Shown: positions 20,855 to 45,706 of the stretch, in pieces
Layout of the letters: every line of letters starts with the position of its first letter
Numbering within the stretch: the stretch's first letter is position 1
Source of the DNA: Streptomyces sp. NBC_01294
Lineage (GTDB): Bacteria > Actinomycetota > Actinomycetes > Streptomycetales > Streptomycetaceae
Length of the DNA stretch: 64,000 nucleotides
Direction: 5' to 3'
Assembly (NCBI RefSeq): GCF_035917235.1
Contig: NZ_CP108423.1
Location: 4,555,501-4,619,500, forward strand
Notes under the pieces: generated by a model
Databases searched by the model: none
Told to the model about the DNA's origin: nothing
What the model saw: only the letters and a program-made list of their open reading frames with translations
Translations under genes and position numbers: made by a program

Positions 20855-21174
20855 TGGCGCCCGAGGACAACGCGGCCCCCGTCGTGGTCGGTCCGGCATC
20901 CGTCGCCTCCCTCCCCCTGAACGTCAAGATCCGCAACCACCGCGGCACGACGGTCGTCGGCGGGTACCGGCATTTCTTCGAGCTGACCGACTCCGCCGCC
21001 CACATCTGGCGCCAGATCGACGGAATCCGGACAGTGGACGATATTGCGACGCTCATCGCCCTGGAATACGACATCGATCGTGAAAGCGTCGTGGAGGACA
21101 TCATCGAGCTCTTCTCCGAACTCGCCGCACATGATGTCGTGAAGATCTCCGAGAGTAGTTCTCGGCTCCAGTGA
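20854..21174 (+). CDS. PqqD-like protein, candidate RiPP recognition element
   Basis: 106 residues. From residue 20 it reads as a PqqD fold: a beta-hairpin (NVKIRNHRGTTVVGG, then HFFELTDSAAHIW), then helices with the motif IDGIRTVDDIATLIALEYD and a final helix-strand EDIIELFSELAAHDVVKI. PqqD-like domains bind leader peptides of ribosomal peptides (RREs). The ATG overlaps the upstream stop. A precursor-like peptide gene (45624-45692) and an asparagine synthetase homologue lie at the other end of the same cluster, as a lasso-type set would. Peptide binding is inferred from fold. Confidence 0.75.
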   Translation: MAPEDNAAPVVVGPASVASLPLNVKIRNHRGTTVVGGYRHFFELTDSAAHIWRQIDGIRTVDDIATLIALEYDIDRESVVEDIIELFSELAAHDVVKISESSSRLQ

Positions 21175-24589: not shown

Positions 24590-24980
24590 ACCCGTCGTCG
24601 GCGCCGGCCTGGACGTGGCGGAGGTCGCCGCCCTCTACCGGGCGTCCACCCTGGCCGAACGCCGCCCGGTGGACGACGCGGAACGGTTCGCCCGGATGCT
24701 CGCCGGAGCCAACCTGGTGATCGCCGCCCGCCTGGACGGACGGCTGATCGGCATCGCCCGGTCGATCACCGACGGGGCGTACGTCACCTACCTCAGCGAC
24801 ATCGCGGTCGACGCCGAGTTCCAGCGCCGGGGCGTGGGACGCGACCTGATCCGGGCCACCCGCGAGGCCGCGCCGCGGGCCAAGCTCGTGCTCCTCTCCG
24901 CCCCCGCCGCGGTCGACTACTACCCCCACATCGGCTTCACCCGTCACGAGTCCGCCTGGACGCGCGATGCGCTCGGGTGA
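24576..24980 (+). CDS. fzmQ: GNAT acetyltransferase, hydrazinosuccinate N-acetyltransferase (FzmQ)
   Basis: 134 residues of GNAT fold, with motif A as SDIAVDAEFQRRGVGRDLI near 78-96 and a C-terminal SAPAAVDYYPHIGF. FzmQ is reported to acetylate hydrazinosuccinate before FzmR splits it. Overlap with fzmR supports their sequential action. The gene lies 27 bases before fzmP. Confidence 0.88.
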   Translation: MWKCEPVVGAGLDVAEVAALYRASTLAERRPVDDAERFARMLAGANLVIAARLDGRLIGIARSITDGAYVTYLSDIAVDAEFQRRGVGRDLIRATREAAPRAKLVLLSAPAAVDYYPHIGFTRHESAWTRDALG

Positions 24981-25007
24981 GCCGGCCCTCCGGAAGAGGT
25001 GACCGCG

Positions 25008-28206: not shown

Positions 28207-29744
28207 CCAAGGCCCGCACCACGCCCCGCGTCCCCGAGCGGCCGTACGGGCGCTTCGACACCGGGAGCGTCGGCTTCGTGCAGCGGCACGGCCTGTGGGA
28301 CGAGGCCCGGCAGGCCGCCGCGGAGGAACTCGAAGAGACGCTGGAGACGCTGGAGTTCGTCCGCGTCGGCTACGGCGACCCGCACGGGCTGATGCGCTCC
28401 AAGACGCTCACGGTGGAGTCCTTCCGCACGGTGCTGCGCAACGGCATCGACATGAGCCCGGGCCCGTTCGTCTTCGACACCGGCCACGCGGTGGGCGTCG
28501 ACTTCTTCGCCGACGGCGGCGGCATCGGCCTCACCGAGCTCACCGGCGCCGGCGACTTCCTGATCGTGCCCGATCCGCTCACCTTCCGGGTGCTGCCCCA
28601 CACCGAGGCCGCCACCGGCTGGGTCATCGCGGACGAGTACCTGCGCGACGGCAGCCCGCACCCGCTGTCCAGCCGGGCCGTGCTGCGCCGCGCCTGCGAG
28701 CGCGCCGCCGAGCGCGGACTGGAGTACGTCGTCGGACTGGAGGTCGAGTGGTACCTGACCCGGCTGACCGGGTCGGTGACCGGCGCCTCGGTCGGCGGGT
28801 TCGGGATCCAGGGCGAGCCGCCCGCGGTCGAACCGGCCAACAGCGGCTACCAGTTCAACCTTGACACCTTCACCGACGGGCTGATGCCGGTGATCACCCC
28901 GCTGGCCCGGGCGCTGCGCGAACTGGGTCTGCCGCTGCGCACCGTCGAGCACGAATCCGGGCCGGGCCAGCTGGAGTTCACCTTCAGCCCGATGAACGGC
29001 CTCGACGCCGCCGACGCCATGCTGCTGTTCCGTACGGTGGCCAAGCAGATCTGCGGCCGCCTCGGGTACCACGCCTCCTTCATGGCCCTGCCCGGCCTGG
29101 ACCGCTTCGACCCCAGCGGCTGGCACCTGCACCAGTCGCTGTTCGACACCGCCGCCGGGACCAACGCCTTCGTACCGCGGGACGGGCGCGGGCCGCTGTC
29201 CCCCCTCGGCCTCTCCTACGTCGCGGGGCTGCTCGCACACGCCGCGGAGACGACCCTGCTCGCCGTCCCCACCGTCAACGGCTACCGGCGCCTCCAGGGT
29301 CAGTTCGCCCTCTCCCCCGACCGCATCGTGTGGAGCGCGGAGAACCGGGGGGCGCTCGTGCGCCTGCTGGGCGGCCCGGGCGAGGAATCCACCCACCTGG
29401 AGAACCGCATCGGCGAACCCTGCGCCAACCCGTACCTCTACCTCGCGGCCCAGCTCGCCGCCGGCCTCGACGGCATCGAACGCGGACTGCAACCGGGCGG
29501 CCTGGCGCAGGACCCGCACGCCGACTCGGCCGCCGCGCTGCCCCGGGACCTGGCGGAGGCCGTCGCGGCCGCGCAGGACAGCGCCCTGACCCGCACCCTG
29601 CTCGGCAAGCACCTCCACGACTGCCTCGTACGGCTCAAGCGCACCGAGCTGTCCCGCTTCGAGCAGTGGCGGGCCACCGCCCCGCCCACCACCCCGGGGG
29701 ACGTCACCGATTGGGAGCACCGTGAGTACTTCGGTGCCTACTGA
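28203..29744 (+). CDS. fzmN: Glutamine synthetase-like hydrazine ligase (FzmN)
   Basis: 513 residues of glutamine synthetase fold: an N-terminal beta-grasp segment (EFVRVGYGDPHGLMRSKTL), then the catalytic barrel with YVVGLEVEWYL, SGPGQLEFTFSP, SGWHLHQSL (metal His) and ENRGALVRLLG, close to GlnA III/gamma-glutamylpolyamine synthetases. It activates Glu gamma-carboxylate with ATP and ligates (acetyl)hydrazine in place of ammonia. This makes a glutamyl carrier of the N-N unit, as reported for FzmN and KinL. Length and motifs are complete. It overlaps fzmM by 23 bases. Confidence 0.9.
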   Translation: MTKARTTPRVPERPYGRFDTGSVGFVQRHGLWDEARQAAAEELEETLETLEFVRVGYGDPHGLMRSKTLTVESFRTVLRNGIDMSPGPFVFDTGHAVGVDFFADGGGIGLTELTGAGDFLIVPDPLTFRVLPHTEAATGWVIADEYLRDGSPHPLSSRAVLRRACERAAERGLEYVVGLEVEWYLTRLTGSVTGASVGGFGIQGEPPAVEPANSGYQFNLDTFTDGLMPVITPLARALRELGLPLRTVEHESGPGQLEFTFSPMNGLDAADAMLLFRTVAKQICGRLGYHASFMALPGLDRFDPSGWHLHQSLFDTAAGTNAFVPRDGRGPLSPLGLSYVAGLLAHAAETTLLAVPTVNGYRRLQGQFALSPDRIVWSAENRGALVRLLGGPGEESTHLENRIGEPCANPYLYLAAQLAAGLDGIERGLQPGGLAQDPHADSAAALPRDLAEAVAAAQDSALTRTLLGKHLHDCLVRLKRTELSRFEQWRATAPPTTPGDVTDWEHREYFGAY

Positions 29745-31782
29745 CGCACGGCGCCGCGACGGGGGAGAGCGGTCCGAGGTGTGGTCCGAGGTCTGCGTCA
29801 TAGGCTCCGGGCCGCGCGGCCTGTCCCTGCTCGAACGGCTCACCGCCTCGGCCGGCCGGCTGCGGGCCCGCGGCGCCCGCCTGCGCGTGCACCTGGTCGA
29901 TCCGCGACCGGGCAGCGGACACGTGTGGCGCTCCGACCAGTCGGAGCAGCTGCTGATGAACACGGTCACCTCGCAGGTCACCCTGTTCACCGACGACAGC
30001 GTGCGGATGGAAGGTCCCGTCGTGCCCGGCCCCAGCCTCCACGCCTGGGCCGCAGACCCGCACGCCCGCGCCCAGTCCGGCCTGCCCGCTGGAGAAGCGG
30101 GCCCGGGCGCCGACGGCTATCCCACCCGGGCCCTGTTCGGCCGCTACCTGGAATGGGTGCTGCGCAGCCTCGTACGGCGCGGCACGGCGGAGATCGTCAC
30201 CCACGCCGCGCGCGCCGTCCGCCTCGACGACGAGCCCGACGGCCGCCAGCGGGTGCGCCTGGAGAACGGGACCGTCCTGGGCGGGCTGGACGCGGTGGTC
30301 CTGGCCCAGGGCCACCTGCCGGTCTCCCCGACCCCCGGCGAGGCGGCGCTGACGTCCTTCGCCCGGAACCGGGGTCTGCTGCACCTCCCGCCCGGGAACC
30401 CGGCCGACGCCGTCCTCGACGGGATCGAACCGGGGGAGAACGTCCTGCTGCGCGGTCTCGGCCTGAACTTCTGCGACTACGCGGCCCTGCTGACCGTCGG
30501 CCGCGGCGGCGCCTTCGAACCCAAGGGCGCCGGCCTGGTCTACCACCGGTCGGGCCGCGAACCCGTCCTGTACGCCGGATCACGGCGCGGAGTCCCGTAC
30601 CAGGCCCGCGGCGAGAACGAGAAGGGCGCCCACGGACGGCACACCCCGCTGCTGCTCACCCCGCGGACCATCGCCCGGCTGCGCGGCGGGCCGGGCACCC
30701 CCAGGCCCTCCTTCCGGCGGGACATCTGGCCCCTCGTCGCCCAGGAGGTCGAGACGGTCTACTACACGACCCTCCTGCGCCGGCAGGGCCGGCCCGCGGC
30801 CGCCGACGCGTTCCTGCGGGCCGCGTCCGCGGGACCCTGGACCGACGGGGCCCGCGACGGGCTGCTCGACGCGCTGGGCGTCGAGCCCGGCCGGCGCTGG
30901 GACTGGGAGGCGCTCGCCCACCCCTGCGGCGGCCGGTCCTTCACCGACCTCGGGGACTTCAACTCCTGGCTCCTGGACCACCTGCGCCGCGACGTCGCCG
31001 AAGCGCACGAGGGGAACGTGAGCAACCCGTACAAGGCGGCCCTCGACGTCCTGCGCGACCTGCGCAACGAGGTGCGGCTCCTGGTGGACCACGGGGGCAT
31101 CTCCGGCGCGGACTACCGCGACGAACTCCTGGGCCGCTACACCCCGCTCAACGCCTACACCTCCATCGGCCCGCCCGCGCGGCGGATCGCGGAGACCATC
31201 GCGCTGATCGAGGCCGGCGTGCTCACCGTGCTCGGACCGGGGGCGCGCTTCGGCGCGGACGAGGCGTCCGGCCGCTTCAGCGCCGGATCCCCGCGCGTGG
31301 GTGGGGATCCGGTCACCGCCCGGGTCCTGGTCGAGGCCAGATTGCCCGAACCGGACCTGGCGCGCACCGAGGATCCGCTGCTTGGGTATCTACGGGACAC
31401 CGGACAGTGCACGGAGTACGTGATCGACGATGAACACAGGCCACTGCGCACCGGGGGAGTCGCGGTGACCGAGCGCCCCTACCGGCTGCTCGACGCGTCG
31501 GGCGCGGCGCACCCGCGCCGCTTCGCCTACGGCGTGCCCACCGAGGGCGTCCACTGGGTGACGGCGGCCGGGGCCCGGCCCGGAGTCGACTCCGTGATCC
31601 TCGGCGACTCCGACGCGATGGCCCGCAGCATCCTGGCGCTGGCCGCGTTACCGGGCGAACCGGCGGGGGCGCGCGCCGTAGGGCAGACGCCCGCCGCGGC
31701 GCAGACGCCCGCCGGCCCGCCCGATCCGCAACCGCAACCGGACCCGGACCCCTGCCTGGAATCCCTGACGAGGAGCATGTGA
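29722..31782 (+). CDS. fzmM: FAD-dependent aspartate N-oxygenase (FzmM; nitrosuccinate-forming)
   Basis: 686 residues, an FAD/NAD(P)-binding protein of the CreE type. The dinucleotide motif CVIGSGPRGLSLLERL is near 19-34, then HVWRSDQSEQLLMNTV, GLGLNFCDYAALLT near 250, and a C-terminal catalytic half. FzmM oxidises L-Asp to N-hydroxy-Asp and further towards nitrosuccinate, feeding FzmL. The GTG at 29722 lies within fzmN, and TGATG overlaps the next gene, so translation is coupled. The last 40 residues are a Pro/Ala/Gln-rich tail. Confidence 0.9.
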   Translation: MSTSVPTDARRRDGGERSEVWSEVCVIGSGPRGLSLLERLTASAGRLRARGARLRVHLVDPRPGSGHVWRSDQSEQLLMNTVTSQVTLFTDDSVRMEGPVVPGPSLHAWAADPHARAQSGLPAGEAGPGADGYPTRALFGRYLEWVLRSLVRRGTAEIVTHAARAVRLDDEPDGRQRVRLENGTVLGGLDAVVLAQGHLPVSPTPGEAALTSFARNRGLLHLPPGNPADAVLDGIEPGENVLLRGLGLNFCDYAALLTVGRGGAFEPKGAGLVYHRSGREPVLYAGSRRGVPYQARGENEKGAHGRHTPLLLTPRTIARLRGGPGTPRPSFRRDIWPLVAQEVETVYYTTLLRRQGRPAAADAFLRAASAGPWTDGARDGLLDALGVEPGRRWDWEALAHPCGGRSFTDLGDFNSWLLDHLRRDVAEAHEGNVSNPYKAALDVLRDLRNEVRLLVDHGGISGADYRDELLGRYTPLNAYTSIGPPARRIAETIALIEAGVLTVLGPGARFGADEASGRFSAGSPRVGGDPVTARVLVEARLPEPDLARTEDPLLGYLRDTGQCTEYVIDDEHRPLRTGGVAVTERPYRLLDASGAAHPRRFAYGVPTEGVHWVTAAGARPGVDSVILGDSDAMARSILALAALPGEPAGARAVGQTPAAAQTPAGPPDPQPQPDPDPCLESLTRSM

Positions 31783-33251
31783 TGGGCAGCGTGACGAGGA
31801 AGACGGATCCCGCCGGACTGGACACCGGCCTGCTCGCGCCGGTCAGGGCGGGCGCCGACACCGAGGCGGGACTGACCGACGAGGCCTGGGTGCAGGCGAT
31901 GCTGGACGCCGAGGCCGCCCTGGCACGGGCCCAGGCCCGGCTGGGCACCGTACCGCCGCAGGCCGCCGCGACCATCACCGGGTGCGCCCGCGCCGCGGAG
32001 ATCGACCTGCCCGGGCTGGCCCTGCGCACCCGCGGCGCGGCCAACCCGGTGGTCGCCCTCGTGGAGGAGTTCACCGAGGTGGTCGCTGCGGTCGACCCCG
32101 AGGCGGCGCACTACGTCCACCGGGGCTCGACCAGCCAGGACGTCTTCGACACCGCGGCGATGCTGATCGCCGCGCGCACGCTGCGGCTGGTACTGGCCCA
32201 ACTGGACCGCACCGCCGCCGCGCTGGCCCGGCACGCCGAAGCGCACCGGGACACCCTGGCCGCCGCCCGCACCCTCGGCCAGCACGCGGTGCCCACCACC
32301 TTCGGGCTCCGCGCGGCCGGCTGGCTGGTCGCCGTGCTGGACGTGCGCAGCAGGACGGCGGCCCTCCTCGACGGCGGCCTGCCCGTCCAGCTGGGCGGCG
32401 CCGCCGGCACCCTGGCCGGGTACGTCGAGTACGCGCACCTGGCGCACACCGCCGCCGGTACGGCGGCCTCCGGCGGCCCCTGGGACGCCGGCCGGTACAC
32501 CGGCGACCTGGTCGCCCTCTTCGCGGCCGAGACGGGGCTGGCCGAACCCGTGCTGCCGTGGCACACCACCCGGACACCGGTCGCCGACATCGGGGCCGTC
32601 CTCGCCCTGGCCTCCGTCACCCTCGGGAAGTTCGCGGCCGACGTGCAGAACCTGTCCCGCACCGAGGTCGCCGAGGTCGCCGAGCCCGCCGAGGCGGGGC
32701 GCGGGATCTCCTCCGCCATGCCGCAGAAACGCAACCCGGTGCTCGCCGCCATGATCCGCTCGGCGGCCCTGCAAGTGCCCTCCCTGGTCCTGACGCTGAC
32801 GCACTGCGCGGTCGCCGAGGACGAGCGGCCCGCCGGCGCCTGGCACGGGGAGTGGCAGCCGCTGCGCGAGGCCCTGCGCCTGGTGGGCGGAGCGGCCGGC
32901 ACCGCGGCGGAACTCGCCGAGGGGCTGGTGGTGCACCCGGAGCGGATGCGGGCCAACCTCGCCCTCACCGGCGGCTCCATCGTCGCCGAGCGGCTCGCCG
33001 CCGTCCTCACGCCCGTACTGGGCAAGGCGGGCGCGAAGCGGCTGGTCGCCCGGGTGTCCGTCGGCGGCGCGGACGCCGGCTCCCTCGTGGACGGACTGCT
33101 GGCGGCGGCCCCGGAACTGGCCGCCGAGTTCACACCGGAACGGCTGGCCGATCTGCTCGCGCCGGCCGGGTACACGGGGGCGGCCTCCGCTCTGATCGAC
33201 CGGGCGCTCGCCCACCACCGCGCCACCCTGCCCGCCGGGCCGCGCGACTGA
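31782..33251 (+). CDS. fzmL: Nitrosuccinate lyase, fumarase/PcaB superfamily (FzmL)
   Basis: 489 residues resembling 3-carboxymuconate cycloisomerase/CreD. STSQDVFDTA, LGQHAVPTTFG and the signature SSAMPQKRNP (near 310-319) are present. FzmL releases nitrous acid and fumarate from the FzmM product. I chose the ATG overlapping the fzmM stop because AGGAGC lies five bases upstream; a GTG three bases earlier is too close to it. It is the second superfamily lyase of the operon beside FzmR; together they recycle two aspartate carbon skeletons to fumarate. Confidence 0.9.
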   Translation: MGSVTRKTDPAGLDTGLLAPVRAGADTEAGLTDEAWVQAMLDAEAALARAQARLGTVPPQAAATITGCARAAEIDLPGLALRTRGAANPVVALVEEFTEVVAAVDPEAAHYVHRGSTSQDVFDTAAMLIAARTLRLVLAQLDRTAAALARHAEAHRDTLAAARTLGQHAVPTTFGLRAAGWLVAVLDVRSRTAALLDGGLPVQLGGAAGTLAGYVEYAHLAHTAAGTAASGGPWDAGRYTGDLVALFAAETGLAEPVLPWHTTRTPVADIGAVLALASVTLGKFAADVQNLSRTEVAEVAEPAEAGRGISSAMPQKRNPVLAAMIRSAALQVPSLVLTLTHCAVAEDERPAGAWHGEWQPLREALRLVGGAAGTAAELAEGLVVHPERMRANLALTGGSIVAERLAAVLTPVLGKAGAKRLVARVSVGGADAGSLVDGLLAAAPELAAEFTPERLADLLAPAGYTGAASALIDRALAHHRATLPAGPRD

Positions 33252-35288: not shown

Positions 35289-36461
35289 TCAGCCCCGGGC
35301 CGCGACCAGCTGCGCGACCCGGGTCTCGATGCCCGGGTCGAACGAGGCGAACTCGGCCCGGCGGGCCGCCTCCGCCTCGCGGACCGCGTCGAGGACCTTC
35401 CCCTCCCACGGGGCGTCCAGGACCAGCCCCCACAGCGGCTCCAGCCGCGCACCGCGGGTCACCTTGGCCTCGAAGGCGTCACAGCTGAGGTCCAGGGAGC
35501 GGTAGCCGTGGGCCGCGGCGTACTCCACCGCCTTGTAGTACGTCAGGTTGAAGTAGAGCTTCGCCTCGCGCCCGATCGAGTCGTCCAGCCCGTGCGAGCG
35601 CGCGTACATCGTGCCGCCCCAGAAGAAGAACTGGGTGAAGCCCACCATCCGTTCGCCCTGGTAGGCCGCCAGGATCCGGCAGTCCTCGTCGAACAGGCCC
35701 GCCTGGAGGGCGAACCGTTCGGACTCCCCCTCGTCCGTCACCGGGTGCCCGTACCGCCGCAGCACCTGCGCGGACAGCGGCCCCATCTCCTGGTGGCACT
35801 CGGACAGCCTGCGCACCTCGGTGCGGCAGCCGGCCTCGTCGTAGCGCCGCATCTCCAGCCGGCGTGACTTGAACTGGCGCGCCGTGAACCGCTTGCGGTA
35901 GCCCTCCAGCCCGTCCGGGTCGATGTCGAGGACGGCACCCGCGTCCATCATCACCAGCTGGTCCGCCGGGCCGAGCAGGGGCAGCAGCCGCTCCACGGAC
36001 GCGTCGGTGAGGTAGAGCGCGGCCGCCAGGCCGCCCGACCCGGACGCCAGCGCCCGCAGCCGCTCCAGCAGCGCCCGCAGCGCGGACCCGGCCAGGGGCT
36101 CGGGCGTGTCCGGGGCGACCAGGACCTCGCTGGTGTAGCCGAGCCGGGTGCCGGCCAGCAGCAGCGGGCGCTCGGGGGAAGCGGGCTCGGCGGCGCCCGG
36201 GAAGAGCACGGAGGGATCGTAGAAGTGCGGGACGGTCCCCGTGAACCGGTGGGTGGGGAGCGCCGCCACCGGTCGGCCGCCGGCCGAGGCGACCAGGTGC
36301 CGGTGGTCGCAGTCGGCCAGCTCCTCGCCGTACTTCAGCCACAGATGGCTGGAGTACAGCGCGGCGTCACCCGCCAGCGCGTCCCACTCCGCGGCCCCGG
36401 TGTCGCGTATCGAGACCAGCTCGGTGAGGTCGACGGTTCCGCCGTCCGTGCTCGCCGTCAC
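35289..36461 (-). CDS. fzmI: tRNA-dependent aminoacyltransferase, Val-adding (FzmI)
   Basis: About 390 residues of the FemAB/Leu-Phe-tRNA-transferase type GNAT fold. The typical C-terminal block is present: QFFFWGGTMYARSHGLDD, then EYAAAHGYRSLDLSCDAFEAK. FzmI is reported to install the N-terminal Val of fosfazinomycin A with Val-tRNA. The GTG at 36461 with AAAGGA upstream is preferred; a longer reading starts at 36503. It is the last gene of the minus operon. A peptide gene encoding Val-Arg at its C-terminus heads this operon, which makes the exact acceptor of FzmI worth re-examining. Confidence 0.86.
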   Translation of the reverse strand: MTASTDGGTVDLTELVSIRDTGAAEWDALAGDAALYSSHLWLKYGEELADCDHRHLVASAGGRPVAALPTHRFTGTVPHFYDPSVLFPGAAEPASPERPLLLAGTRLGYTSEVLVAPDTPEPLAGSALRALLERLRALASGSGGLAAALYLTDASVERLLPLLGPADQLVMMDAGAVLDIDPDGLEGYRKRFTARQFKSRRLEMRRYDEAGCRTEVRRLSECHQEMGPLSAQVLRRYGHPVTDEGESERFALQAGLFDEDCRILAAYQGERMVGFTQFFFWGGTMYARSHGLDDSIGREAKLYFNLTYYKAVEYAAAHGYRSLDLSCDAFEAKVTRGARLEPLWGLVLDAPWEGKVLDAVREAEAARRAEFASFDPGIETRVAQLVAARG

Positions 36462-36515
36462 AGGGGGTCCTTTCAGGTCGGGGCCGGTGTCGGAACGCCC
36501 CACGGTAGGCGGCGT

Positions 36516-37592
36516 TCAGGTCCGGGCGGGCTCGATGATGCGAAAGTCGGCCATTCCGCGGTCCGCCCGCAGATAGGCCAGCCGGGCGGCGCTCGCACCG
36601 CGCCGCGCGAAGGCCCCGGTCACCTCGGCGGCCAGCGCCGCCGGGTCGGCCTGCGGGTCGGTGTCGAGGTGGTCCGACACCACCGTCTGCACGAGGTCCG
36701 AGTCGGCGTCGAGGGCCATCCGGTCCGTGAGCGTGATGGTGAGGCCGTAGCCGTCGGCCGCGCCGCGGGCGCGCAGCTCCTCCGCCGACAGCAGCGCGCC
36801 GTCCGACTCCAGCAGGAGGGCCGTCAGGAACGCCGACCCGCCCTCGGCGAGGTGCGCGGGCAGGCCGTCCAGGACGCGGCGGCCCACCGAGAACCCGTCG
36901 GCGCCGCCCTCGTGCGGGGCCTCCCGCCCGGGAGGCGACACGCTGGGCAGGAAGGGCACGTTGGCGATGACGCGGTCGTACGGTCCCGCGCCCGCGCCCA
37001 GCGACGCGTACAGATCGCCGGTCCGTACCTCGGTCCGCCCGGCGAGGCCGTTGAGCCGCGCGTTCAGCCGGGCGGTGGCCGACACCTCCGGGAGCAGCTC
37101 CACCAGGGTTGCCGAGGCGCCGCGCTGGGCGGCCAGCAGCCCCTGGAACCCCGGCCCGGAACAGAGGTCCAGGACCCGGTCGCCCGGCCGGTAGGTGCCC
37201 CGTCTGGCCAGGGCGACTGAGTCGGCGCCGAAGTAGTGGCGCACCGGGAAGGGGCTCGGCGGCTCGGCCAGCAGCCACAGCCCCTGCGACCGGAACAGGG
37301 CGACGTCGGCCAGCTGGGCCCGGCCGCCCTGCTCCTGTGCCAGCGCGCAGGCCACCAGCTCGGGGACCGCGGCGGCGACCGCCGCGGGCAGCGCGTCGAG
37401 GTCCGCGGGCTCGCCGAGCAGCAGGAACCCGGCCGTCGTGCGCAGCAGGCCGCCCAGGCCTTCGACGCCGGCCGCCCACCGGCGGCGGTCCGGGACGTCG
37501 TCGTCGAACCCGGCCAGGAACTCGGCCAGTCCGAGCCGTTCGAGCGCCCGGGTCAGATCGGTGACCGGGTCCGTCGTGAGCGGGTCCGTCAT
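36516..37592 (-). CDS. fzmH: SAM-dependent N-methyltransferase (FzmH)
   Basis: 358 residues. The N-terminal 130 residues are a helical substrate domain. The Rossmann methyltransferase domain has motif I VLDLCSGPGFQG near 142-153 and an ANVPFLP motif (NPPY-like, for N-methylation) near 207-213. FzmH is reported to convert arginine hydrazide into the N-methyl hydrazide. It overlaps fzmG by ATGA. Confidence 0.87.
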   Translation of the reverse strand: MTDPLTTDPVTDLTRALERLGLAEFLAGFDDDVPDRRRWAAGVEGLGGLLRTTAGFLLLGEPADLDALPAAVAAAVPELVACALAQEQGGRAQLADVALFRSQGLWLLAEPPSPFPVRHYFGADSVALARRGTYRPGDRVLDLCSGPGFQGLLAAQRGASATLVELLPEVSATARLNARLNGLAGRTEVRTGDLYASLGAGAGPYDRVIANVPFLPSVSPPGREAPHEGGADGFSVGRRVLDGLPAHLAEGGSAFLTALLLESDGALLSAEELRARGAADGYGLTITLTDRMALDADSDLVQTVVSDHLDTDPQADPAALAAEVTGAFARRGASAARLAYLRADRGMADFRIIEPART

Positions 37593-38470
37593 GAGCGGGG
37601 CAGTCCGATCCAGGTGCGCAGCATCAGCCGCCCGCCGTCGGCGGACTCCCCGTCGTCCTCGAAGGCGGTCCTGCCGTGCACGATCGACCGGTTGTCGATG
37701 AAGATCATCTCGCCTGGTTCCAGGCGTCCGTGGGTCTGCATCTCCCGCTTGTCCAGCAGCGCGTCGAGCAGGTCCAGCGCCTCGGTCTGCGCGGGCGTCA
37801 ACGGCGGCACGTGCGGGTGCCGGTGGCCGATCTCGATGTAGTCCCGCAGGTAGTACATCCGCTCCCGGCCGTCCTCGTACTCGAAGACCGGGCGCTGCGT
37901 CGTCAGCGGCACACCGGGGGTGTCGTCCCGGGTGTCGAAGTGCACCGGCAGCCGCAGCGTATCCAGCTCCCGCGGATGGTCCGCCAGCGCCTCCAGCAGG
38001 TCGCTGACGTGCACGGTCACCAGCGCGCCGCCGCTGCGCGCCTGGCGGAGGCAGAAGAGCGTGAAGATGTCCGGAAGACGGCCCGGCCGGTGCGCGGCGT
38101 CGGTGTGCAGGCTGCCGCCCTGACGGCTGTCGGAGTAGCGGCCGGTCGGACCCTCGCCGAGCCGCACACCGCGGTCCCGTACGTCGCGCAGCAGCGCCCC
38201 GTGTCCGTCCTGCGGCAGCAGGTCGCCGGCCATACGCGAGACGGCCACGGTGAAGTCGCGGGCCTGCCGCTCGCTCAGGTGGTCCAGCCCGGTCAGGACG
38301 AAATAGCCGGGCAGCGCGTCCAGATGGCGCCGCATCAGGCCGTGGAGGGTGGCGTACAGCTCCGGGTACCAGTCCTGCCGGGGGTCGGGATCCGGGGCGG
38401 CGGAGGCGGCGGTGGCCAGGTCCGGGTCGACGGGTACGCGGACGGTCGAGAACGGATCGTTGGTGTTCAT
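37589..38470 (-). CDS. fzmG: Fe(II)/2-oxoglutarate dioxygenase (FzmG)
   Basis: 293 residues of the TauD/clavaminate synthase-like family. Iron ligands His122 and Asp124 (LHTD) and His265 (SIVHGRT) are in place, with an Arg at 281 or 285 for 2-oxoglutarate. FzmG is reported to act twice: oxidising phosphonoacetaldehyde to phosphonoacetate, and hydroxylating methyl phosphonoacetate. The ATG start is one base from the fzmF stop. Confidence 0.9.
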   Translation of the reverse strand: MNTNDPFSTVRVPVDPDLATAASAAPDPDPRQDWYPELYATLHGLMRRHLDALPGYFVLTGLDHLSERQARDFTVAVSRMAGDLLPQDGHGALLRDVRDRGVRLGEGPTGRYSDSRQGGSLHTDAAHRPGRLPDIFTLFCLRQARSGGALVTVHVSDLLEALADHPRELDTLRLPVHFDTRDDTPGVPLTTQRPVFEYEDGRERMYYLRDYIEIGHRHPHVPPLTPAQTEALDLLDALLDKREMQTHGRLEPGEMIFIDNRSIVHGRTAFEDDGESADGGRLMLRTWIGLPRS

Positions 38471-38471
38471 G

Positions 38472-39740
38472 TCAGACTCCCAGTGCGTGGCTTCCGAGCC
38501 GGTCGGGCACCAGGCCCGACTCCCTCAGACACGCGGCTATTTCTTCCGAGCAGTGAGTAACCCCCGTTATCCGACTGCCTTCCACGGCCCGCAGCACCGC
38601 GCCGGCCACCCGCCCGCGGCCGCCGCCCGTGGCGAGGACCTGCGTGACGATGTTGTCCAGGACCACGGGACGCGTCACGTCGAGCGCGCAGTTGTACGTC
38701 ACGCCCGCCTCGGGCGCCAGGTCGAGGCGCTCCACGCGGCCGGGGCCCCCGAGGAAGAGGCGGGCCTCCAGGCAGTGCACGCTCCGGTCCGCCGTGATCC
38801 GGCCGGGTGCCAGCAACGCGCCCCCGGCCAGCTCCACCTGCAGGGCGATCAGGTCCGTCCCGGTCTGCGCCTCGCACATCCGGTAGGCGAGCGGCAGCCG
38901 GCCGTTGACCTCCAGGAAGTAGTGCCCGGCCGGCCCCACGATGAACTCCACCGTGGCGACGTTGCGCAGCCCCATGCCGGTGACCAGCCGTGCCGAGTCC
39001 GCCCGCATGCGCTCCAGCAGCCCGGGCGCGACCCGTTCCACGGGCGAGGCCTCCAGCAGCTTCATGCTGCCCTCGACCAGCAGGCTCTCCCGCTCGCCGA
39101 GCGCGGCGACGGTACCCGCCGCGTCCACGGCGACGGTCACCCCGACCACCTGGCCCCGCTCGACGTACCGCTCCGCGTACCACCGGGCACCCCGGTCCCG
39201 GGCCACCAGCGCGAGCGCCTCCTGCGCCTGCGCCTCGGTGCGCAGGATGCGCACCCCCAGCCCCCCGCAGCCGTTCACGGGCTTGAGGATGACGGGCAGC
39301 CCGATCTCCTTGACCAGCGCGGTGATGTCCTCGTACCCGGTGGCGTGCGGGAGCACCGGCAGCCCGAGCCGCCCGGCCGCGGCGACGGCGTGCTCCTTGT
39401 CGCGGGCGGCGCTGAGCACCTGCGCGGACGGGCCGATGAAGTCGATGCCGACGGCGGCGAGCCGCTCGGGCAGCTCGGGGTCCTCGGCCAGGGCCCCGTA
39501 GCCGGGGTGGACGGCGGCGGCCCCGCACCGCACGGCCGCCGCGACGATCCGGCCGACGTGGTCGTACGTCTCGGCGAGGCCCTCGCCGTCGAGGTACTCG
39601 CAGCCGTCCGCGTCCACGGTGTGCAGCTGCTGAGGATCGGACATGGCGGCGACCGTGATCGGGGACCATCCGAGCGATCGGAAGGTCTCGACGGCCCGGG
39701 CCGCGACCGCACCGCGGTTGGCGATCAGAACTCTTCTCAT
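38472..39740 (-). CDS. fzmF: Biotin carboxylase-like ATP-grasp ligase (FzmF)
   Basis: 422 residues with the biotin carboxylase fold: RRVLIANRGAVAARAV at the start, AAAVHPGYGALAEDP, ATP-grasp GLPVILKPVNGCGGLGVRI, and VEFIVGPAGHYFLEVNGRLP for Mg-ATP binding. There is no biotin carrier and no carboxyltransferase nearby, so it is more likely a stand-alone ligase. It would activate a carboxylate and could form the amide between methyl hydroxyphosphonoacetate and the methyl-hydrazide nitrogen; that is inference. The letter is taken from order. Confidence 0.83.
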   Translation of the reverse strand: MRRVLIANRGAVAARAVETFRSLGWSPITVAAMSDPQQLHTVDADGCEYLDGEGLAETYDHVGRIVAAAVRCGAAAVHPGYGALAEDPELPERLAAVGIDFIGPSAQVLSAARDKEHAVAAAGRLGLPVLPHATGYEDITALVKEIGLPVILKPVNGCGGLGVRILRTEAQAQEALALVARDRGARWYAERYVERGQVVGVTVAVDAAGTVAALGERESLLVEGSMKLLEASPVERVAPGLLERMRADSARLVTGMGLRNVATVEFIVGPAGHYFLEVNGRLPLAYRMCEAQTGTDLIALQVELAGGALLAPGRITADRSVHCLEARLFLGGPGRVERLDLAPEAGVTYNCALDVTRPVVLDNIVTQVLATGGGRGRVAGAVLRAVEGSRITGVTHCSEEIAACLRESGLVPDRLGSHALGV

Positions 39741-40582: not shown

Positions 40583-41691
40583 TTCAGACCCTTCGACGTG
40601 TCGGCCGCCGCGGCCTGGAACCGAGCCCTGACCCCGGCGTTGGTGTGCGCCGAGGTTACCCGCGGGGGTGTCGGCCCGCCGCGGCCGATGTGCAGCGCCA
40701 CCAGGTGCGGGCCGGGCAGGCCCGCGATCTCCGCCAGGTGGGCGTCGGCCTCCTTCGCGGTACGGCACACCTGCCCCGTGCGGTACCCGGCCGCCAGCGC
40801 CAGCTCGTCCCAGCGCATCGCGGTGTCCCGGGTGCGCTGCCCGCCGGTGGAGTCGTAGACCCCGTTGTCGAGGACCAGGTGCGTCAGGTTCGCGGGGCAG
40901 CGCTCGCCCACCAGGGCCAGGCCGCCCAGGTGCATCAGGGCCGCGCCGTCCCCGTCCACCACGACGACCCGCTGGTCGGGGCGGTTCAGCGCGGTGCCCA
41001 GGCCCAGGCCGATGGCATGGCCCATGGAGCCCTGCATGTAGAAGGTGTGCGGGGTGTCGCGCACGCCGAAGAGCTCGCGGCTGATCATGCCGGTGGTGCT
41101 GTAGACCAGCGCGCCGTCCAGATGCCCGGCGACCGCCTCCACGGCCTCCTGCCGGGTCATCGGCGACGCGTCGGCCACGGCGGCGGACACGGCGCAGGTG
41201 TCCACCGTCGCGGCCGGGACCAGCACCACGAACGAGCGGCGTGCGGCGCGCTCCCGCGCGGCCCGGTCCAGCAGCGCGGACAGGCTCGCCTCGGTGGGCT
41301 CCAGGATGCCGTGCGCGACACCCACGGCCTGCAGCACGCCGAGGGTCGCCGCGCCCATGGCGGCGTGGTGCGGCTCGTCGTCCGCCGCGTCGGGCCAGCC
41401 GCGCAGGCTCACGAAGAGCAGCAGCGGGATCTCGTAGGCCATCACGAGCGAGGTCAGCGGGTCCAGCAGGTTGCCCAGTCCCGAGTTCTGGGCCAGCACC
41501 GCGGCCTTGGTGCCGCCGAGTTCGGCGCCCGCCGCCATCGACAGCGCGATGCCCTCGTTGGGCGCGGGAACGTAGCTGCCGCGCTGTTCGAGCAGCGCGA
41601 ACGGCCCCTTCAGGAACGAGCAGGGGACCCCGCTGAAGAACCCGAACCCGCGCCGGTCCAGCTCCGCGCAGAAGAACTCGGCGCTGATCAC
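40579..41691 (-). CDS. fzmD: Phosphonopyruvate decarboxylase (FzmD)
   Basis: 370 residues, a single-chain TPP enzyme. The N-terminal pyrimidine domain has FSGVPCSFLKG and GIALSMAAGAELGG; the C-terminal PP domain has QGSMGHAIGLGLG and VDGDGAALMHLGGLA with NGVYDSTGGQ. It decarboxylates phosphonopyruvate to phosphonoacetaldehyde, pulling the unfavourable mutase step. It overlaps fzmC by GTGA. Length matches Ppd. Confidence 0.92.
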   Translation of the reverse strand: MISAEFFCAELDRRGFGFFSGVPCSFLKGPFALLEQRGSYVPAPNEGIALSMAAGAELGGTKAAVLAQNSGLGNLLDPLTSLVMAYEIPLLLFVSLRGWPDAADDEPHHAAMGAATLGVLQAVGVAHGILEPTEASLSALLDRAARERAARRSFVVLVPAATVDTCAVSAAVADASPMTRQEAVEAVAGHLDGALVYSTTGMISRELFGVRDTPHTFYMQGSMGHAIGLGLGTALNRPDQRVVVVDGDGAALMHLGGLALVGERCPANLTHLVLDNGVYDSTGGQRTRDTAMRWDELALAAGYRTGQVCRTAKEADAHLAEIAGLPGPHLVALHIGRGGPTPPRVTSAHTNAGVRARFQAAAADTSKGLK

Positions 41692-42542
41692 GCGCTCCAC
41701 CCCTCCCACTTCGAGACGCCTGTCAGCCCGAACAGCTCCTTCATCGGCGCGATCCCGTCCTCGACCCCGCCCGTACCGCCCTGGAGGTGGATCTCGCCCA
41801 GGACGTCGCGCATCGCCGTGACCGATGCGCGCAGCGCGTGGTTGGCGTAGATCACCATCGACACGCCCGCCTCCTGCGCCTCGGTGAGGTCCCAGTGCGG
41901 GTAGGTCGTGGGCACCACCACCACGGGCGTGCGGGCCCGCCAGGCGTGCAGGAACTCCAGGATCTCGGTCGGCGTCGGCTTCTTGGAGTGGATCAGGATC
42001 GCGTCCGCGCCGGCGTCCGCGTACAGGTGGGCGCGGTGCAGCGCCTCGTCCATGCCCCGGCCCGCGATGAGGGCCTCCGTACGGGCGACGATGGTGAAGT
42101 CCTCGCTGCGCCGGGCGCGCGCGCCGGCCTCGATGCGTCCGGCGAAGTCCTGCGCGTCCTCCAGGTTCTGGCCGGCGAGGAAACTGTTGCGCTTGGGGAA
42201 GACCTTGTCCTCGAAGCAGACGCCCGCGATGCCCGCCGCCTCGAACTGCTGGACCGTGCGGACCACGTTGATCTTGCCGCCGAACCCGGTGTCGCAGTCG
42301 GCCAGCAGGGGCAGCGCGGTGGCCTCGTTGACGTGCGAGGACGCCACCAGCAGCTCGGCCATGGTCAGCAGGCCCAGATCCGGCAGGGCCCGGGACGCCG
42401 ACAGCTCGAAGCTCGACGCCCACAGCCCGTCGAAGCCGGCCTCCTCCACCAGCAGGGCGGTGAGCGCGTCCCGCGAACCGACGATCCGGGCTATCTCCTT
42501 GCGCTCCAGTAACTCGCGCAGTCGCGCCGCCTTCGGCATCAT
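41688..42542 (-). CDS. fzmC: Phosphoenolpyruvate mutase (FzmC)
   Basis: 284 residues. The diagnostic PEP mutase motif EDKVFPKRNS lies at residues 111-120, and DCDTGFGG binds Mg near 82-89. It rearranges PEP to phosphonopyruvate, forming the C-P bond; this is the defining enzyme of phosphonate clusters. The ATG at 42542 overlaps the fzmB stop as ATGA; a second ATG follows directly. Isocitrate lyase/2-methylisocitrate lyase relatives lack this motif. Confidence 0.94.
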   Translation of the reverse strand: MMPKAARLRELLERKEIARIVGSRDALTALLVEEAGFDGLWASSFELSASRALPDLGLLTMAELLVASSHVNEATALPLLADCDTGFGGKINVVRTVQQFEAAGIAGVCFEDKVFPKRNSFLAGQNLEDAQDFAGRIEAGARARRSEDFTIVARTEALIAGRGMDEALHRAHLYADAGADAILIHSKKPTPTEILEFLHAWRARTPVVVVPTTYPHWDLTEAQEAGVSMVIYANHALRASVTAMRDVLGEIHLQGGTGGVEDGIAPMKELFGLTGVSKWEGWSA

Positions 42543-43237
42543 TCCCCAGCCCTCTGCGCGAACCGTCCGTGACGGGTGCCCGCCACGTCCTGTCCGGGCG
42601 TGTCGAAGACGCAGTGCCAGTGGAAGGAACCCGGCTTCTCGTGCTCGGCGTCGGTGGCGCTGAGCAGCCGGAACCCCTCGTGCAGGCGGACCAGGTCGGC
42701 GGCGTCGACGTACATGTGCGGGTGGACCTTGTCGTCCGGCGCGCCGGGCTGGCAGAAGGTGTTGGGGCTGACCTCGTCGCCGCGCCCGTACTCGCCGTTG
42801 CGCTTGGAGAGCATCGTGGACTGGTAGACGCCGCCCGGGCGGAGCACCCGGCGGACCTCGGCGAGCACCCGCGCCAGGCCGGCCTCGTCGTTGTGGTAGA
42901 CCACGTTGAAGGCCAGGACGAGGTCGAAGCTCGCGTCCGGGTAGGGCAGTTCGGTGAAGTCGGCCACCTCGAAGGCGATGTTCACGCCGCGTTTGGCGCT
43001 CTCGTCGAGACCGACGCGGACGGCTTCGGGACTGCGGTCGGTCGCGGAGCTGACCAGACCCTGCTCCGCGTAGAACAGGGCGTGCCGGCCGACCCCGCAG
43101 CCGAGATCCAGTACGTCCTTGGCGCCGAGGGCCTGCAGGCGGGCGGCCTCGTCCACGACCCACGGGTGAGGCCGCGACCAGTCCGCTCGTCCGCCGTCGG
43201 TACGCCAGACCTCGTCCCAGTAGAGATGGGCTGTCAT
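42539..43237 (-). CDS. fzmB: SAM-dependent O-methyltransferase (FzmB)
   Basis: 232 residues of class I methyltransferase: motif I VLDLGCGVGRHALF near 48-61, DASFDLVLAFNVVYH near 110-124, and a RRVLRPGGVYQST strand. FzmB is reported to methylate phosphonoacetate at the carboxylate to give methyl 2-phosphonoacetate for FzmG. The start has a GAGGTC site. A gap of 95 bases separates it from fzmA. Confidence 0.87.
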   Translation of the reverse strand: MTAHLYWDEVWRTDGGRADWSRPHPWVVDEAARLQALGAKDVLDLGCGVGRHALFYAEQGLVSSATDRSPEAVRVGLDESAKRGVNIAFEVADFTELPYPDASFDLVLAFNVVYHNDEAGLARVLAEVRRVLRPGGVYQSTMLSKRNGEYGRGDEVSPNTFCQPGAPDDKVHPHMYVDAADLVRLHEGFRLLSATDAEHEKPGSFHWHCVFDTPGQDVAGTRHGRFAQRAGE

Positions 43238-43332: not shown

Positions 43333-45531
43333 TCAGTTCGCGGCCGTCACCGCGCCGGGGACCACTTCCAGCAGACCGGCTTCGAGCGACTCGTCCAGCA
43401 GCGGCCGCATGTCCTCCAGGCCGCAGCCGACCGAGGCGACCGCCGAGTCCAGCGGGCGCACCCCGTCGAAGGCGCGCAGCAGCCGCAGCCAGTCGCCGTG
43501 GGTGATCTGGTCGATGGTGAAGCGCAGGGCGCCGTCGATCACGACGTACGAGGTCTTCGCGTCCGGGGAGTCGTCCAGGACGAGGACCCCGTCGGCGAGC
43601 CGCAGCACGGTCGCCTCCTCGATCCGGGTCTGCGGGAACAGCTCGCGGATCTCGGGACCTTCGAAGTCGCTCACCCGCACCTCGTACGGGGCGGGGCCGG
43701 GAGCCGGACGGCTGCCGGGCGGGTCGACCGTCATCAGGTCGAGCAGGCCCAGGTTGACGACGCGCAGCAGCAGCTCCACGTGGCCCGAGCTCTGGTCCTG
43801 CTCCAGCCGGCGCAGCGTCCGGCGGACGTTGGCCCCGTCGAGGTACTGGGCGGCGCGCGGCGAGGACAGTGCCTCCTCGACCAGCTCGTCTCCGCCACCT
43901 GCCAGCATGCGGGTGAAGGTCCGGTGGGTGTGCCGGACGCCCTCGCCCTCGTAGAAGGCCAGCTTGGGACGGCTGATCACCTCGGGCGGCAGGATGTCGC
44001 TGACGGCCTCGCGGATGACCTGCTTGTTCCAGAACAGCCGCTTGCGGTAGGCGCGGGGCACGCTCGCCAGCAGCTCGATGATGCGGTGGTCCAGGAAGGG
44101 CACCCGCGCCTCGACCCCGTTCCCGGAGGCGGTGCGGTCCTCGACCCAGAAGTTGTACTGCTGCATGTCGCGGAACTTCCACGCCAGGTAGGAGCCGTAC
44201 GGGTCGTCGACCGCCCCCGGTGCGTACGCGTCCACCGCGGCGTCGCCGAGCAGTGGCAGGTCGGTCTCCTCCCACCAGGCGGACACGGGGGAGCGGGTGC
44301 CGAGCGCCTTGCGGCGGGCCAGCGTGCGCAGGTTGCCGTCGAAGTCCTCCCAGTCGCCGCCGCCCGAGAGGGCGACGCTGTAGCCGCCGCTGAACTCGTC
44401 GGCGCCGGAACCCAGCAGCATCGCCTTGAGCCCGGGCCGCTCGGCGCGCGCGAAGCGGTACATCTCGCTCTTGTAGAACTGCTCCGGTCCGCACTGCGGC
44501 GTCTCCATCAGCCACAGCAGGCGCCGCCACTCGTCCGGCGAGGGCACCCGGTCGGCTCCGAAGGCCACTTGGTGGTGCGGCAGCCCGAGCAGGCCCGCGG
44601 TCTCCTGGGCGTACTGGGCGTCCTTGTTGACCACCGTGCTGCCGGTCAGGGCGGAGAAGGTGTGCAGTTCCGTGTGGGCGGACAGGGCGGTGATCGCCGC
44701 CGAGTCCAGGCCGCCGCTGAGGAAGACACCGATCTCGGCGTCGGCGATCAGGCACTCGCGGACCGACGAGGCGAGCAGGTCGCCCATGCTCTGCACGAAG
44801 AAGCTCTCGGGGAGGTCGCCCGCCTCGGCCGGCGCCGGCAGCTCCCAGTAGCGGTGCACGCGGGTCGCGCCGTCGCGCAGGCCGATGCTCATGACGGTGC
44901 CCGACGGGACGTGGTCCACGTCCTTGAACCAGGTCACGGGCTCGTCGTCGACCATCACGGGGGCGGCGCTGAGACCCTGGTCGGCGAGGGCGCGCGCCCA
45001 GTCCACCTCGCGCGGGCAGTCGGGGTGCGCGAAGAGCGCCTTGATCTCCGAACCGAACAGCACGGTGTCGCCGCGGCGGTGGACGAACAGGGGCTTGATG
45101 CCGAGCCGGTCCCGGGCCAGCAGCAGCCGCTGCTCGCGCAGGTCGATGACGGCGATGCCGAACATGCCCCGGACGTCGTCCAGGAAGTCGATGCCCTTCT
45201 CCAGGTAGAGGTGGAGGAGCACCTCGCAGTCGGACTCGCTGCGGAACTTCGCCCGGCCCTCGAACGTGCGGCGCAGTTCGCGGTGGTTGTAGATCTCGCC
45301 GTTGCAGGCGAGGATCACATTGCCGTCTTCGCTGATGAACGGCTGCCGGCCGCCCTCAGGGTCGATCAGTGCGAGCCGGGTGAAGGACATGCAGGCCTGC
45401 GCCGTGTGGTGGAACTGCATGTCGTCGGGGCCGCGGGGACGCAGCGCACGGGCCATGTCTCGCAGGATCTGGTCGGCCGACCCCGCGAGGCCGCTTCCGT
45501 CGGTGTGAGCGAATCCGGCAATTCCGCACAT
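43333..45531 (-). CDS. fzmA: Asparagine synthetase B homologue with PqqD-like C-terminal extension (FzmA)
   Basis: 732 residues. The class II glutaminase domain is complete (Cys2 in MCGIAG, NGEIYNH at 77-83). The synthetase domain has the PP-loop SGGLDS at 272-277 and GSGADEFSGGY. About 120 residues extend beyond a normal AsnB; residues 642-732 read like a PqqD or winged-helix fold (RAFDGVRPLDSAV, ESLEAGLLEVV). Inference: the glutaminase site could cleave gamma-glutamylhydrazide, made by FzmN/FzmO as a glutamine mimic, and the freed hydrazine could attack an adenylated Arg carboxylate. It lies directly after the 22-codon peptide gene. Lasso cyclases belong to the same superfamily. Confidence 0.85.
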   Translation of the reverse strand: MCGIAGFAHTDGSGLAGSADQILRDMARALRPRGPDDMQFHHTAQACMSFTRLALIDPEGGRQPFISEDGNVILACNGEIYNHRELRRTFEGRAKFRSESDCEVLLHLYLEKGIDFLDDVRGMFGIAVIDLREQRLLLARDRLGIKPLFVHRRGDTVLFGSEIKALFAHPDCPREVDWARALADQGLSAAPVMVDDEPVTWFKDVDHVPSGTVMSIGLRDGATRVHRYWELPAPAEAGDLPESFFVQSMGDLLASSVRECLIADAEIGVFLSGGLDSAAITALSAHTELHTFSALTGSTVVNKDAQYAQETAGLLGLPHHQVAFGADRVPSPDEWRRLLWLMETPQCGPEQFYKSEMYRFARAERPGLKAMLLGSGADEFSGGYSVALSGGGDWEDFDGNLRTLARRKALGTRSPVSAWWEETDLPLLGDAAVDAYAPGAVDDPYGSYLAWKFRDMQQYNFWVEDRTASGNGVEARVPFLDHRIIELLASVPRAYRKRLFWNKQVIREAVSDILPPEVISRPKLAFYEGEGVRHTHRTFTRMLAGGGDELVEEALSSPRAAQYLDGANVRRTLRRLEQDQSSGHVELLLRVVNLGLLDLMTVDPPGSRPAPGPAPYEVRVSDFEGPEIRELFPQTRIEEATVLRLADGVLVLDDSPDAKTSYVVIDGALRFTIDQITHGDWLRLLRAFDGVRPLDSAVASVGCGLEDMRPLLDESLEAGLLEVVPGAVTAAN

Positions 45532-45580
45532 GTGGCTTCCGATTCCCCTGTGTCGTCTGCGTCTGTGTCCTGGAGCGGAA

Positions 45581-45614
45581 CATGCCACGCCCCCGGTCAA
45601 GGAGGCGTGGCATG
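45581..45614 (-). terminator. Hairpin between peptide gene and fzmA (candidate attenuator)
   Basis: A perfect 11-bp stem (45581-45591 with 45604-45614; arm CATGCCACGCC) with a 12-base loop starts ten bases after the peptide stop and ends 50 bases before fzmA. No long U-tract follows, so it is more likely a leaky terminator or an RNA-stabilising 3' end that lets the peptide mRNA exceed the rest of the operon, as in many RiPP operons. Confidence 0.7.
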
Positions 45615-45623
45615 TCGTCACCG

Positions 45624-45692
45624 CTATCGCACGGAAGCGACGATGGTGCCCTGGTCGACCTTCTTGGCCTCCGGCTTGGTGTAAACCTTCAT
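45624..45692 (-). CDS. 22-residue peptide ending in Val-Arg, candidate precursor/scaffold peptide
   Basis: A 22-codon gene at the head of the minus fzm operon. The peptide begins MKVYTKPEAKK and ends TIVASVR. The start is fixed by a full GGGAGGTGA ribosome site five bases upstream; the longer in-frame reading is Pro/Arg-rich non-coding sequence. Tyr4-x-x-Pro7 resembles the YxxP element of lasso leader peptides bound by PqqD-like proteins. The final two residues equal the Val-Arg of fosfazinomycin A. It is directly upstream of the asparagine synthetase homologue. The role as scaffold is an inference, and I recall no published function. Confidence 0.78.
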   Translation of the reverse strand: MKVYTKPEAKKVDQGTIVASVR

Positions 45693-45697
45693 GACTT

Positions 45698-45706
45698 TCA
45701 CCTCCC
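45698..45706 (-). promoter_or_regulatory. Strong Shine-Dalgarno of the 22-codon peptide gene
   Basis: GGGAGGTGA on the minus strand, five bases before the ATG at 45692, is among the best ribosome sites in the window. It decides the short start, because it lies inside the longer reading frame. Confidence 0.85.

Follow-up and report, generated by a model that had tools for sequence, protein, structure and literature searches.

A tiny and easily missed gene in a fosfazinomycin-type cluster probably encodes a scaffold peptide on whose last Arg residue the hydrazide is built. The window, by which we mean the whole 64,000-nucleotide stretch of DNA that was analysed, holds the following features on which this proposal turns.

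45624..45692, minus strand: 22-codon gene for the putative scaffold (precursor) peptide, MKVYTKPEAKKVDQGTIVASVR; residues 1-18 leader-like, 19-20 variable, 21-22 Val-Arg
45701..45706, minus strand: ribosome-binding site GGGAGG of the peptide gene
45574..45622, minus strand: hairpin between the peptide gene and the asparagine synthetase gene, -34.9 kcal/mol, z -5.9 against composition shuffles
43333..45531, minus strand: 732-aa homologue of asparagine synthetase, FzmA-type, combining a glutaminase and a synthetase domain
43354..43722, minus strand: C-terminal domain of the synthetase (residues about 604-726); the order of its secondary structure elements and a profile comparison suggest an RRE/PqqD-like domain
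20072..20854, plus strand: nucleotidyltransferase-fold protein with a conserved GS..RGW....SD.D motif; PF01909 match weak, below cutoff
20854..21174, plus strand: discrete RRE of the PqqD family, 106 aa (PF05402, E 2.3e-13)

The peptide gene reads from 45692 to 45624 on the minus strand and ends in a stop codon after 22 codons; the GGGAGG ends 8 nt 5' of its ATG. The first-pass annotation of this DNA had picked out a 22-codon gene with a strong ribosome site here. Its coordinates are correct, and the strand that it omitted is minus, the plus strand of 45624..45692 not encoding the MKVYTKPEAKKVDQGTIVASVR peptide. It had also placed the gene directly upstream of an asparagine synthetase-like gene, which is borne out: the next gene on the same strand, after a 92-bp spacer, is the asparagine synthetase (AS; MCGIAGFAH.., ATG at 45531, end at 43333). 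Nine ATG ORFs in the window have exactly 22 codons, and just one of them contains M..Y.KP. The peptide matches no Pfam or NCBIfam family.

We assessed conservation of the gene around homologues of the AS. A contig scan gave seven loci at 71-88% identity. At genus, order and class level, 24 of 392, 11 of 391 and 3 of 394 genomes searched had the AS at E<=1e-100, with overlap between these sets. With L009 and L066 dropped as the same records as L007 and L003, the set comprises 37 distinct AS genes including that of the window, to which the other 36 are 41-88% identical. A 22-codon M-x-x-Y-x-K-P gene was found for 36 of the 37, and for 34 it lies on the same strand no more than 400 bp upstream. 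Two copies of the peptide gene are found 5 kb from the AS in L017/L041 and one copy 6 kb from it in L070/L091; L071/L092 has no 22-codon peptide gene in the 20 kb around the AS. The three plasmid records with an AS at E<=1e-100 (S. europaeiscabiei, Streptomyces sp. NBC_00853 and S. scopuliridis) all have the gene, 157-174 bp upstream of the AS, and their gene tables, which are incomplete, do not list it. Such clusters also occur on large linear Streptomyces plasmids (L108-L110), with many transposase genes near L109 and L110. All 39 peptides, 36 from genomes and 3 from plasmids, are exactly 22 residues long.

The peptide also co-occurs with the AS across genomes. A profile built from 26 of the peptides gave matches at E<1e-7 in 15 of 199 Streptomyces genomes (the first part of the 392, to judge from their handles), exactly the 15 that hold the AS; two further matches, at E 0.05 and 0.09, fall in long open frames. 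The sensitivity of the profile is not independent, because it includes peptides of the searched genomes, but the absence of matches elsewhere is. Among 15 genomes chosen as AS holders the peptide was found in 14, with one genome also giving a chance-like match at E 0.03. The exception, G826 (L071/L092), lies on a long branch of the AS tree and has the AS and an AurF-type gene, but neither the peptide nor a match to the nucleotidyltransferase in its genome. At the nucleotide level, majority identity across nine fosfazinomycin-type loci is 0.90-0.97 in bins of the ORF, 0.80 at the ribosome site, 0.75 just past the ORF and 0.52-0.67 in the remaining bins on either side. The pN/pS of the peptide gene in these nine loci is 0.31; the value of 0.99 for 25 more distant peptides is saturated and uninformative. 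Conservation, exact length and co-occurrence with the AS rule out a chance ORF, and the 22-codon gene at 45692-45624 is confirmed as real.

Positions M1, Y4, K6 and P7 are invariant, so that every one of the 39 peptides carries a Y-x-K-P motif, and a further leader pattern consists of K10, V12 and then usually GT[V/I][L/V] at positions 15-18. Variation is greatest at positions 19 and 20 (9 and 11 residue types), and position 22 is limited to R (15 peptides), A (10), V (9), T (3) and K (2). The motif bound by discrete lasso RREs is [Y/W]xxPx[L/V/I/F/A] (PMC13381572). YxKPx is followed by A (28 peptides), T (7), V (3) or S (1), and the 31 with A or V fit the full motif. The first-pass annotation had likened the N-terminus to the Tyr-x-x-Pro of lasso leaders: the YxxP-type motif is present, but the peptide is not a lasso precursor.

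In the window the genes for the RRE and the nucleotidyltransferase adjoin, and relatives share a PqqD-family protein (RRE) of ~95 residues and a nucleotidyltransferase-fold protein. All eight fosfazinomycin-type genomes searched have the RRE, with the nucleotidyltransferase adjoining. Across the 36 clusters examined with their flanks (the window, L001-L007, L034 with L096/L097, L035-L056 and L091-L095, with L065 left out), the RRE is present in 34 (missing in L053 and L092) and the nucleotidyltransferase in 35 (missing in L092). Two marks of RiPP/RRE systems are found here: an encoded precursor conserved with its enzyme, and an RRE in the cluster together with an RRE-type leader motif. Comparison of sequences establishes the peptide, its conservation, its tie to the AS, RRE and nucleotidyltransferase, and its restricted last residue.

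The rest of the window cluster comprises the following genes.

42542..43237, minus strand: methyltransferase, probably FzmB (Pfam on the L002 homologue)
41688..42542, minus strand: PEP mutase (PepM), PF13714
40579..41706, minus strand: phosphonopyruvate decarboxylase, TIGR03297
39833..40768, minus strand: metallophosphoesterase, PF00149; ORF as listed, start uncertain
38472..39740, minus strand: biotin-carboxylase-like ATP-grasp protein
37589..38470, minus strand: TauD-type dioxygenase, presumably FzmG
36516..37592, minus strand: methyltransferase, probably FzmH (retained in the PepM-free cluster L034)
35289..36503, minus strand: FemAB-like protein (PF04339, E 1.1e-6), probably the Val-tRNA-dependent FzmI
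23276..29722, plus strand: hydrazine cassette, in the gene order described in PMC6133997
23276-24589, plus strand: FzmR-type lyase
24576-24980, plus strand: FzmQ-type acetyltransferase
24999-26717, plus strand: FzmP-type gene, no Pfam family
26707-28206, plus strand: FzmO-type amidase
28203-29722, plus strand: FzmN-type glutamine synthetase
29722..33251, plus strand: CreE/FzmM-type flavoprotein and CreD/FzmL-type lyase (nitrite supply)

By gene content this is a fosfazinomycin cluster: the PepM part, the FzmN-R cassette and fzmA make up the set described for fosfazinomycin in PMC6133997. Its relative L003 is from Streptomyces sp. NRRL S-244; PMC12692060 describes the cluster of that strain as fosfazinomycin A-like and gives 97.36% identity between its SARP and one in BGC0000937 (strain WM6372).

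We define a hydrazide-type clade of ten AS proteins (the window, L001-L007, L065 and L010/L034). PepM was seen in eight of the ten. The FzmN-R cassette was followed in six members; all five types are present in the window, L001, L002, L006 and L007, and L034 has the FzmN, O, Q and R types without FzmP. Among the stretches examined, FzmM- and FzmL-type genes were found only in the window and L001; the stretches of L002/L105, L006/L104 and L007/L102 showed none of these nitrite-forming genes. L034 (with L097, G252) has FzmI- and FzmH-type genes and a peptide ending in VVR. It gave no PepM match in its 20 kb or the surrounding 40 kb, and no FzmP, FzmM or separate FzmL homologue in 60 kb, so its hydrazide label rests on the FzmN/O/Q/R-, FzmH- and FzmI-type genes. 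The L034/L097 product is possibly a phosphonate-free hydrazide.

The last residue is Arg in all ten peptides of the hydrazide-type clade, each ending in VR and all belonging to one clade, and in 5 of 26 outside it (L019, L020, L021, L067 and L069). The first-pass annotation had proposed an alignment of related clusters as a test of its reading, and a peptide ending in Arg is indeed kept in the window and in all seven other PepM-containing relatives examined, as well as in L065 and the PepM-free L034. On the AS tree, Arg versus any other residue at this position takes 3 changes, compared with 11.9 in shuffles. We dropped this clade-tracking as special evidence, because positions 16-22 all follow the AS tree.

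In the proposed pathway the AS would be the enzyme that modifies the peptide. FzmA liberates hydrazine from glutamylhydrazide, and in an assay mix of Arg, ATP, Mg2+, phosphatase and glutamylhydrazide neither condensation with Arg nor adenylation of Arg was observed (PMC6133997). If the acceptor is Arg22 of a scaffold, this failure on free Arg is to be expected. The AlphaFold2 model of FzmA (mean pLDDT 90) has a C-terminal domain in the order strand-strand-strand-helix-strand-helix-helix-strand. An end-to-end alignment was obtained between a profile of this domain and 21 discrete RREs (hhalign probability 72.6%, P 4e-6), against 0.0-0.2% when three further segments of FzmA were compared with the RREs and when all four segments were compared with the nucleotidyltransferase. 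This suggests that FzmA carries a built-in RRE at its C-terminus. The solved structure closest to the AS, by sequence and by fold, is TsnB9 (PDB 7ylz). In an alignment with E. coli AsnB, QCGPEQ of FzmA faces the AsnB stretch DVTTIR, which we take to hold the aspartate-binding residues.

We consider it likely, on this comparative evidence, that the 22-mer is a ribosomal scaffold on whose C-terminal Arg FzmA builds the hydrazide, the modified Arg then being released. The PqqD-type RRE, and perhaps the RRE-like domain of FzmA as well, would bind the leader, which is the first two thirds of the 22-mer. FzmA would adenylate the C-terminal carboxylate of Arg22, and its glutaminase domain would free hydrazine from gamma-glutamylhydrazide for transfer to Arg22, giving peptide-Arg-NHNH2. 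A peptidase cut between Val21 and Arg22 would yield Arg-hydrazide, the reported substrate of FzmH (PMC6133997); the phosphonate would then be joined to the Arg-hydrazide, and FzmI would add Val last. The first-pass annotation had likewise put the hydrazide on the C-terminal Arg of a scaffold. The conserved Arg end, the discrete RRE, the YxxP-type motif and the failure of FzmA with free Arg all fit, and a ribosomal scaffold of this kind is well supported by comparison, if unproven; the reaction on the peptide, leader binding, the cut and the order of steps are inferred.

Fosfazinomycin A carries Val-Arg, and the FzmI step is Val-tRNA-dependent. The first-pass annotation had seen in the C-terminal Val-Arg the dipeptide part of fosfazinomycin A, a point on which the evidence is weak. 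In the wider family, 19 of 36 peptides have Val at position 21: all ten of the hydrazide-type clade and 9 of the 26 others. We rejected Val-Arg as weak proof of the origin of the dipeptide. Moreover, S. eurythermus (L007, L101, L102) has a fosfazinomycin-type cluster whose contig lacks FzmI- and FzmH-type genes: no FzmI homologue was found in the genome at E<=1e-5, and the 34-kb contig of the cluster, searched in full, gave no match to the 36516 methyltransferase (FzmH-type). That the peptide of this species nonetheless ends in NVR implies that Arg is the residue that matters; most simply, Val would be re-added by FzmI where its gene exists.

The proteolytic release proposed by the first-pass annotation fares less well in the window, where none of the genes given to Pfam was recognised as a protease that could cut between Val21 and Arg22, and release would there need a housekeeping peptidase. 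Elsewhere, L041 has a gene for a 761-residue M20/M28-type peptidase directly after its two peptide genes and L049 a 71% identical one; with the L041 peptidase as query, no other locus gave a match. In L041:3938-8247 and L049:1923-5791 this peptidase gene stands together with orotidine decarboxylase-family and BtpA-family genes.

Clusters outside the hydrazide-type clade (L035-L056, L091-L095 and L108-L110) combine the peptide, AS, RRE and nucleotidyltransferase with an AurF-type diiron oxygenase, except for L092, which lacks the peptide, RRE and nucleotidyltransferase. The AurF-type gene is present in 27 of 27 such clusters and on all three plasmids (L108-L110), and was not found in any of nine clusters inside the clade (for L001-L007, 22 kb only). 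Weak cassette-like matches occur in two outside clusters, L043 (FzmM-like, 29%; amidase, 36%) and L053 (FzmM-like, 37%). Several of L036-L039, L047, L048 and L053 hold nucleotide-type genes (NDK-like, thymidylate-kinase-like and HAD phosphatase), a hint of nucleotide-containing products in these clusters.

Because the outside clusters share the peptide, AS, RRE and nucleotidyltransferase, the basic reaction of the AS need not be hydrazide formation. The peptide could be a true scaffold to which the AS attaches another group, such as ammonia to give a C-terminal amide, with hydrazine entering later and the nucleotidyltransferase acting on the scaffold-bound nitrogen. The use of glutamine or ammonia by PesC (PMC13060819) and the near-constant nucleotidyltransferase of the clusters (35 of 36) speak for this possibility, but FzmA accepts glutamylhydrazide and Arg-hydrazide is the reported FzmH substrate (PMC6133997), and we think it unlikely. 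It is very improbable that the peptide is instead an allosteric partner or activator of the AS, such that FzmA must bind it to act on free Arg; this would likewise explain why FzmA alone failed with free Arg, but leaves the restricted last residue, the RRE and the tandem copies without explanation.

An ORF just upstream of the AS with a hairpin between them could also be a regulatory leader of the AS operon, working by attenuation or translational coupling. Of the 34 loci folded, 33 show a hairpin downstream of the peptide stop codon (z below -1.5; shuffles preserved base composition only, and L017, L070 and L071 fall outside the 34); in the exception, L026, the sequence folded was the spacer between tandem peptide copies. 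However, the 39 peptides keep their amino-acid sequence and length even though their last residues differ, and the peptide gene occurs both in tandem (L026/L051 and L041) and displaced 5-6 kb from the AS (L041 and L091), which makes an attenuator unlikely; we give a regulatory leader very little credence. In L026 there are three tandem copies ahead of the AS gene (L051:8597-8890). Least credible of all is the possibility that the gene merely sits in the cluster and encodes an ordinary RiPP precursor, for instance that of a lasso peptide: a YxxP leader motif, an RRE and an AS-family enzyme are common to lasso systems, but there is no room for a lasso core in 22 residues, the AS scores far below the lasso-cyclase cutoffs (NF033535, 178.2 of 525 bits; NF033561, 69.7 of 300) and no B2-type peptidase was recognised among the window cluster genes given to Pfam.

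Returning to the hydrazide-bearing scaffold, a broader and rather doubtful extension would make all these clusters one large actinobacterial family. In it a single module, made up of the 22-residue scaffold, the discrete RRE, the nucleotidyltransferase and an AS whose tail is RRE-like, would start from the C-terminal residue that the gene encodes (Arg, Ala, Val, Thr or Lys) and yield a small antibiotic that is an amide, a hydrazide or N-P-bonded. Even the P-N bond of fosfazinomycin would then be prepared on the peptide, with the nucleotidyltransferase acting on an amide or hydrazide nitrogen still bound to the scaffold.

Formation of Arg-hydrazide is the missing step of the fosfazinomycin pathway in PMC6133997. 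Full-text literature searches, with subscription journals mostly outside their coverage, yielded no paper that we recognised, by title and opening of the abstract, as describing a peptide in this pathway, and the available parts of PMC6133997, PMC11705231, PMC12154649, PMC12692060, PMC13302981 and PMC6429109 mention none. A scaffold peptide would place a ribosomal step in a pathway not described as ribosomal in the literature searched, and would amount to a carrier-peptide logic with the building block written into the gene. Genome mining across actinomycetes could also use the conserved pattern to find this family of precursor genes, which are short and easily missed.

The proposed system can be compared with several known ones. 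Carrier-peptide biosynthesis is established for the pearlins 3-thiaglutamate, 3-thiahomoleucine and ammosamide, which are made with PEARLs (PMC9303977, PMC12715798). As in the present proposal, the C-terminus of a ribosomal carrier is where a small product derived from an amino acid is made, a protease then releases it, and an RRE protein can be encoded. Pearlins differ in that a PEARL appends the amino acid from an aminoacyl-tRNA and the carrier is regenerated, whereas in the proposed system the residue is gene-encoded and an AS-family enzyme would modify its carboxylate. No PEARL (peptide aminoacyl-tRNA ligase) domain was found among the window genes given to Pfam, and by that criterion we rejected a pearlin. 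The FemAB-like gene is the only tRNA-dependent candidate in the window and is absent in S. eurythermus; FemAB-like FzmI is not known to act on the peptide.

AS-like enzymes that modify the C-termini of ribosomal peptides include PesC (nitrilobacillins), TsrC and ScdTA, and about 300 further candidates near RiPP elements were left uncharacterised (PMC13060819). Like these, FzmA would work on the C-terminal carboxylate of a ribosomal peptide. They form amides or nitriles on a peptide that is itself the product, whereas for FzmA hydrazine is the expected nucleophile, the peptide would be mostly discarded and the AS has an RRE-like tail. The trichostatin hydroxyamidotransferase TsnB9 resembles FzmA as an AS homologue that moves an N-X group, hydroxylamine on a glutamyl carrier, from a glutamate side chain to another carboxylate; it differs in that its acceptor is not a ribosomal peptide and no peptide partner is described in the available part of the source (PMC6133997).

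Lasso systems share with the window cluster a YxxP leader motif, a discrete RRE and an AS-family enzyme, but the 22-residue peptide has no core behind its leader to supply a ring-forming acidic residue, the AS is no lasso cyclase by score and no B2 protease was recognised among the window genes given to Pfam, and we rejected a lasso peptide. Microcin C uses a ThiF-like enzyme, and we know of no nucleotide product of a window-type system. Microcin C-type peptide-nucleotides, named in PMC6429109, share with the window system a short ribosomal peptide modified at its C-terminus, and a nucleotidyltransferase-fold gene lies nearby in the window system. Judged from its genes, the window cluster would work like a carrier-peptide pathway equipped with RiPP machinery, being neither a lasso system nor, by the PEARL criterion, a pearlin.
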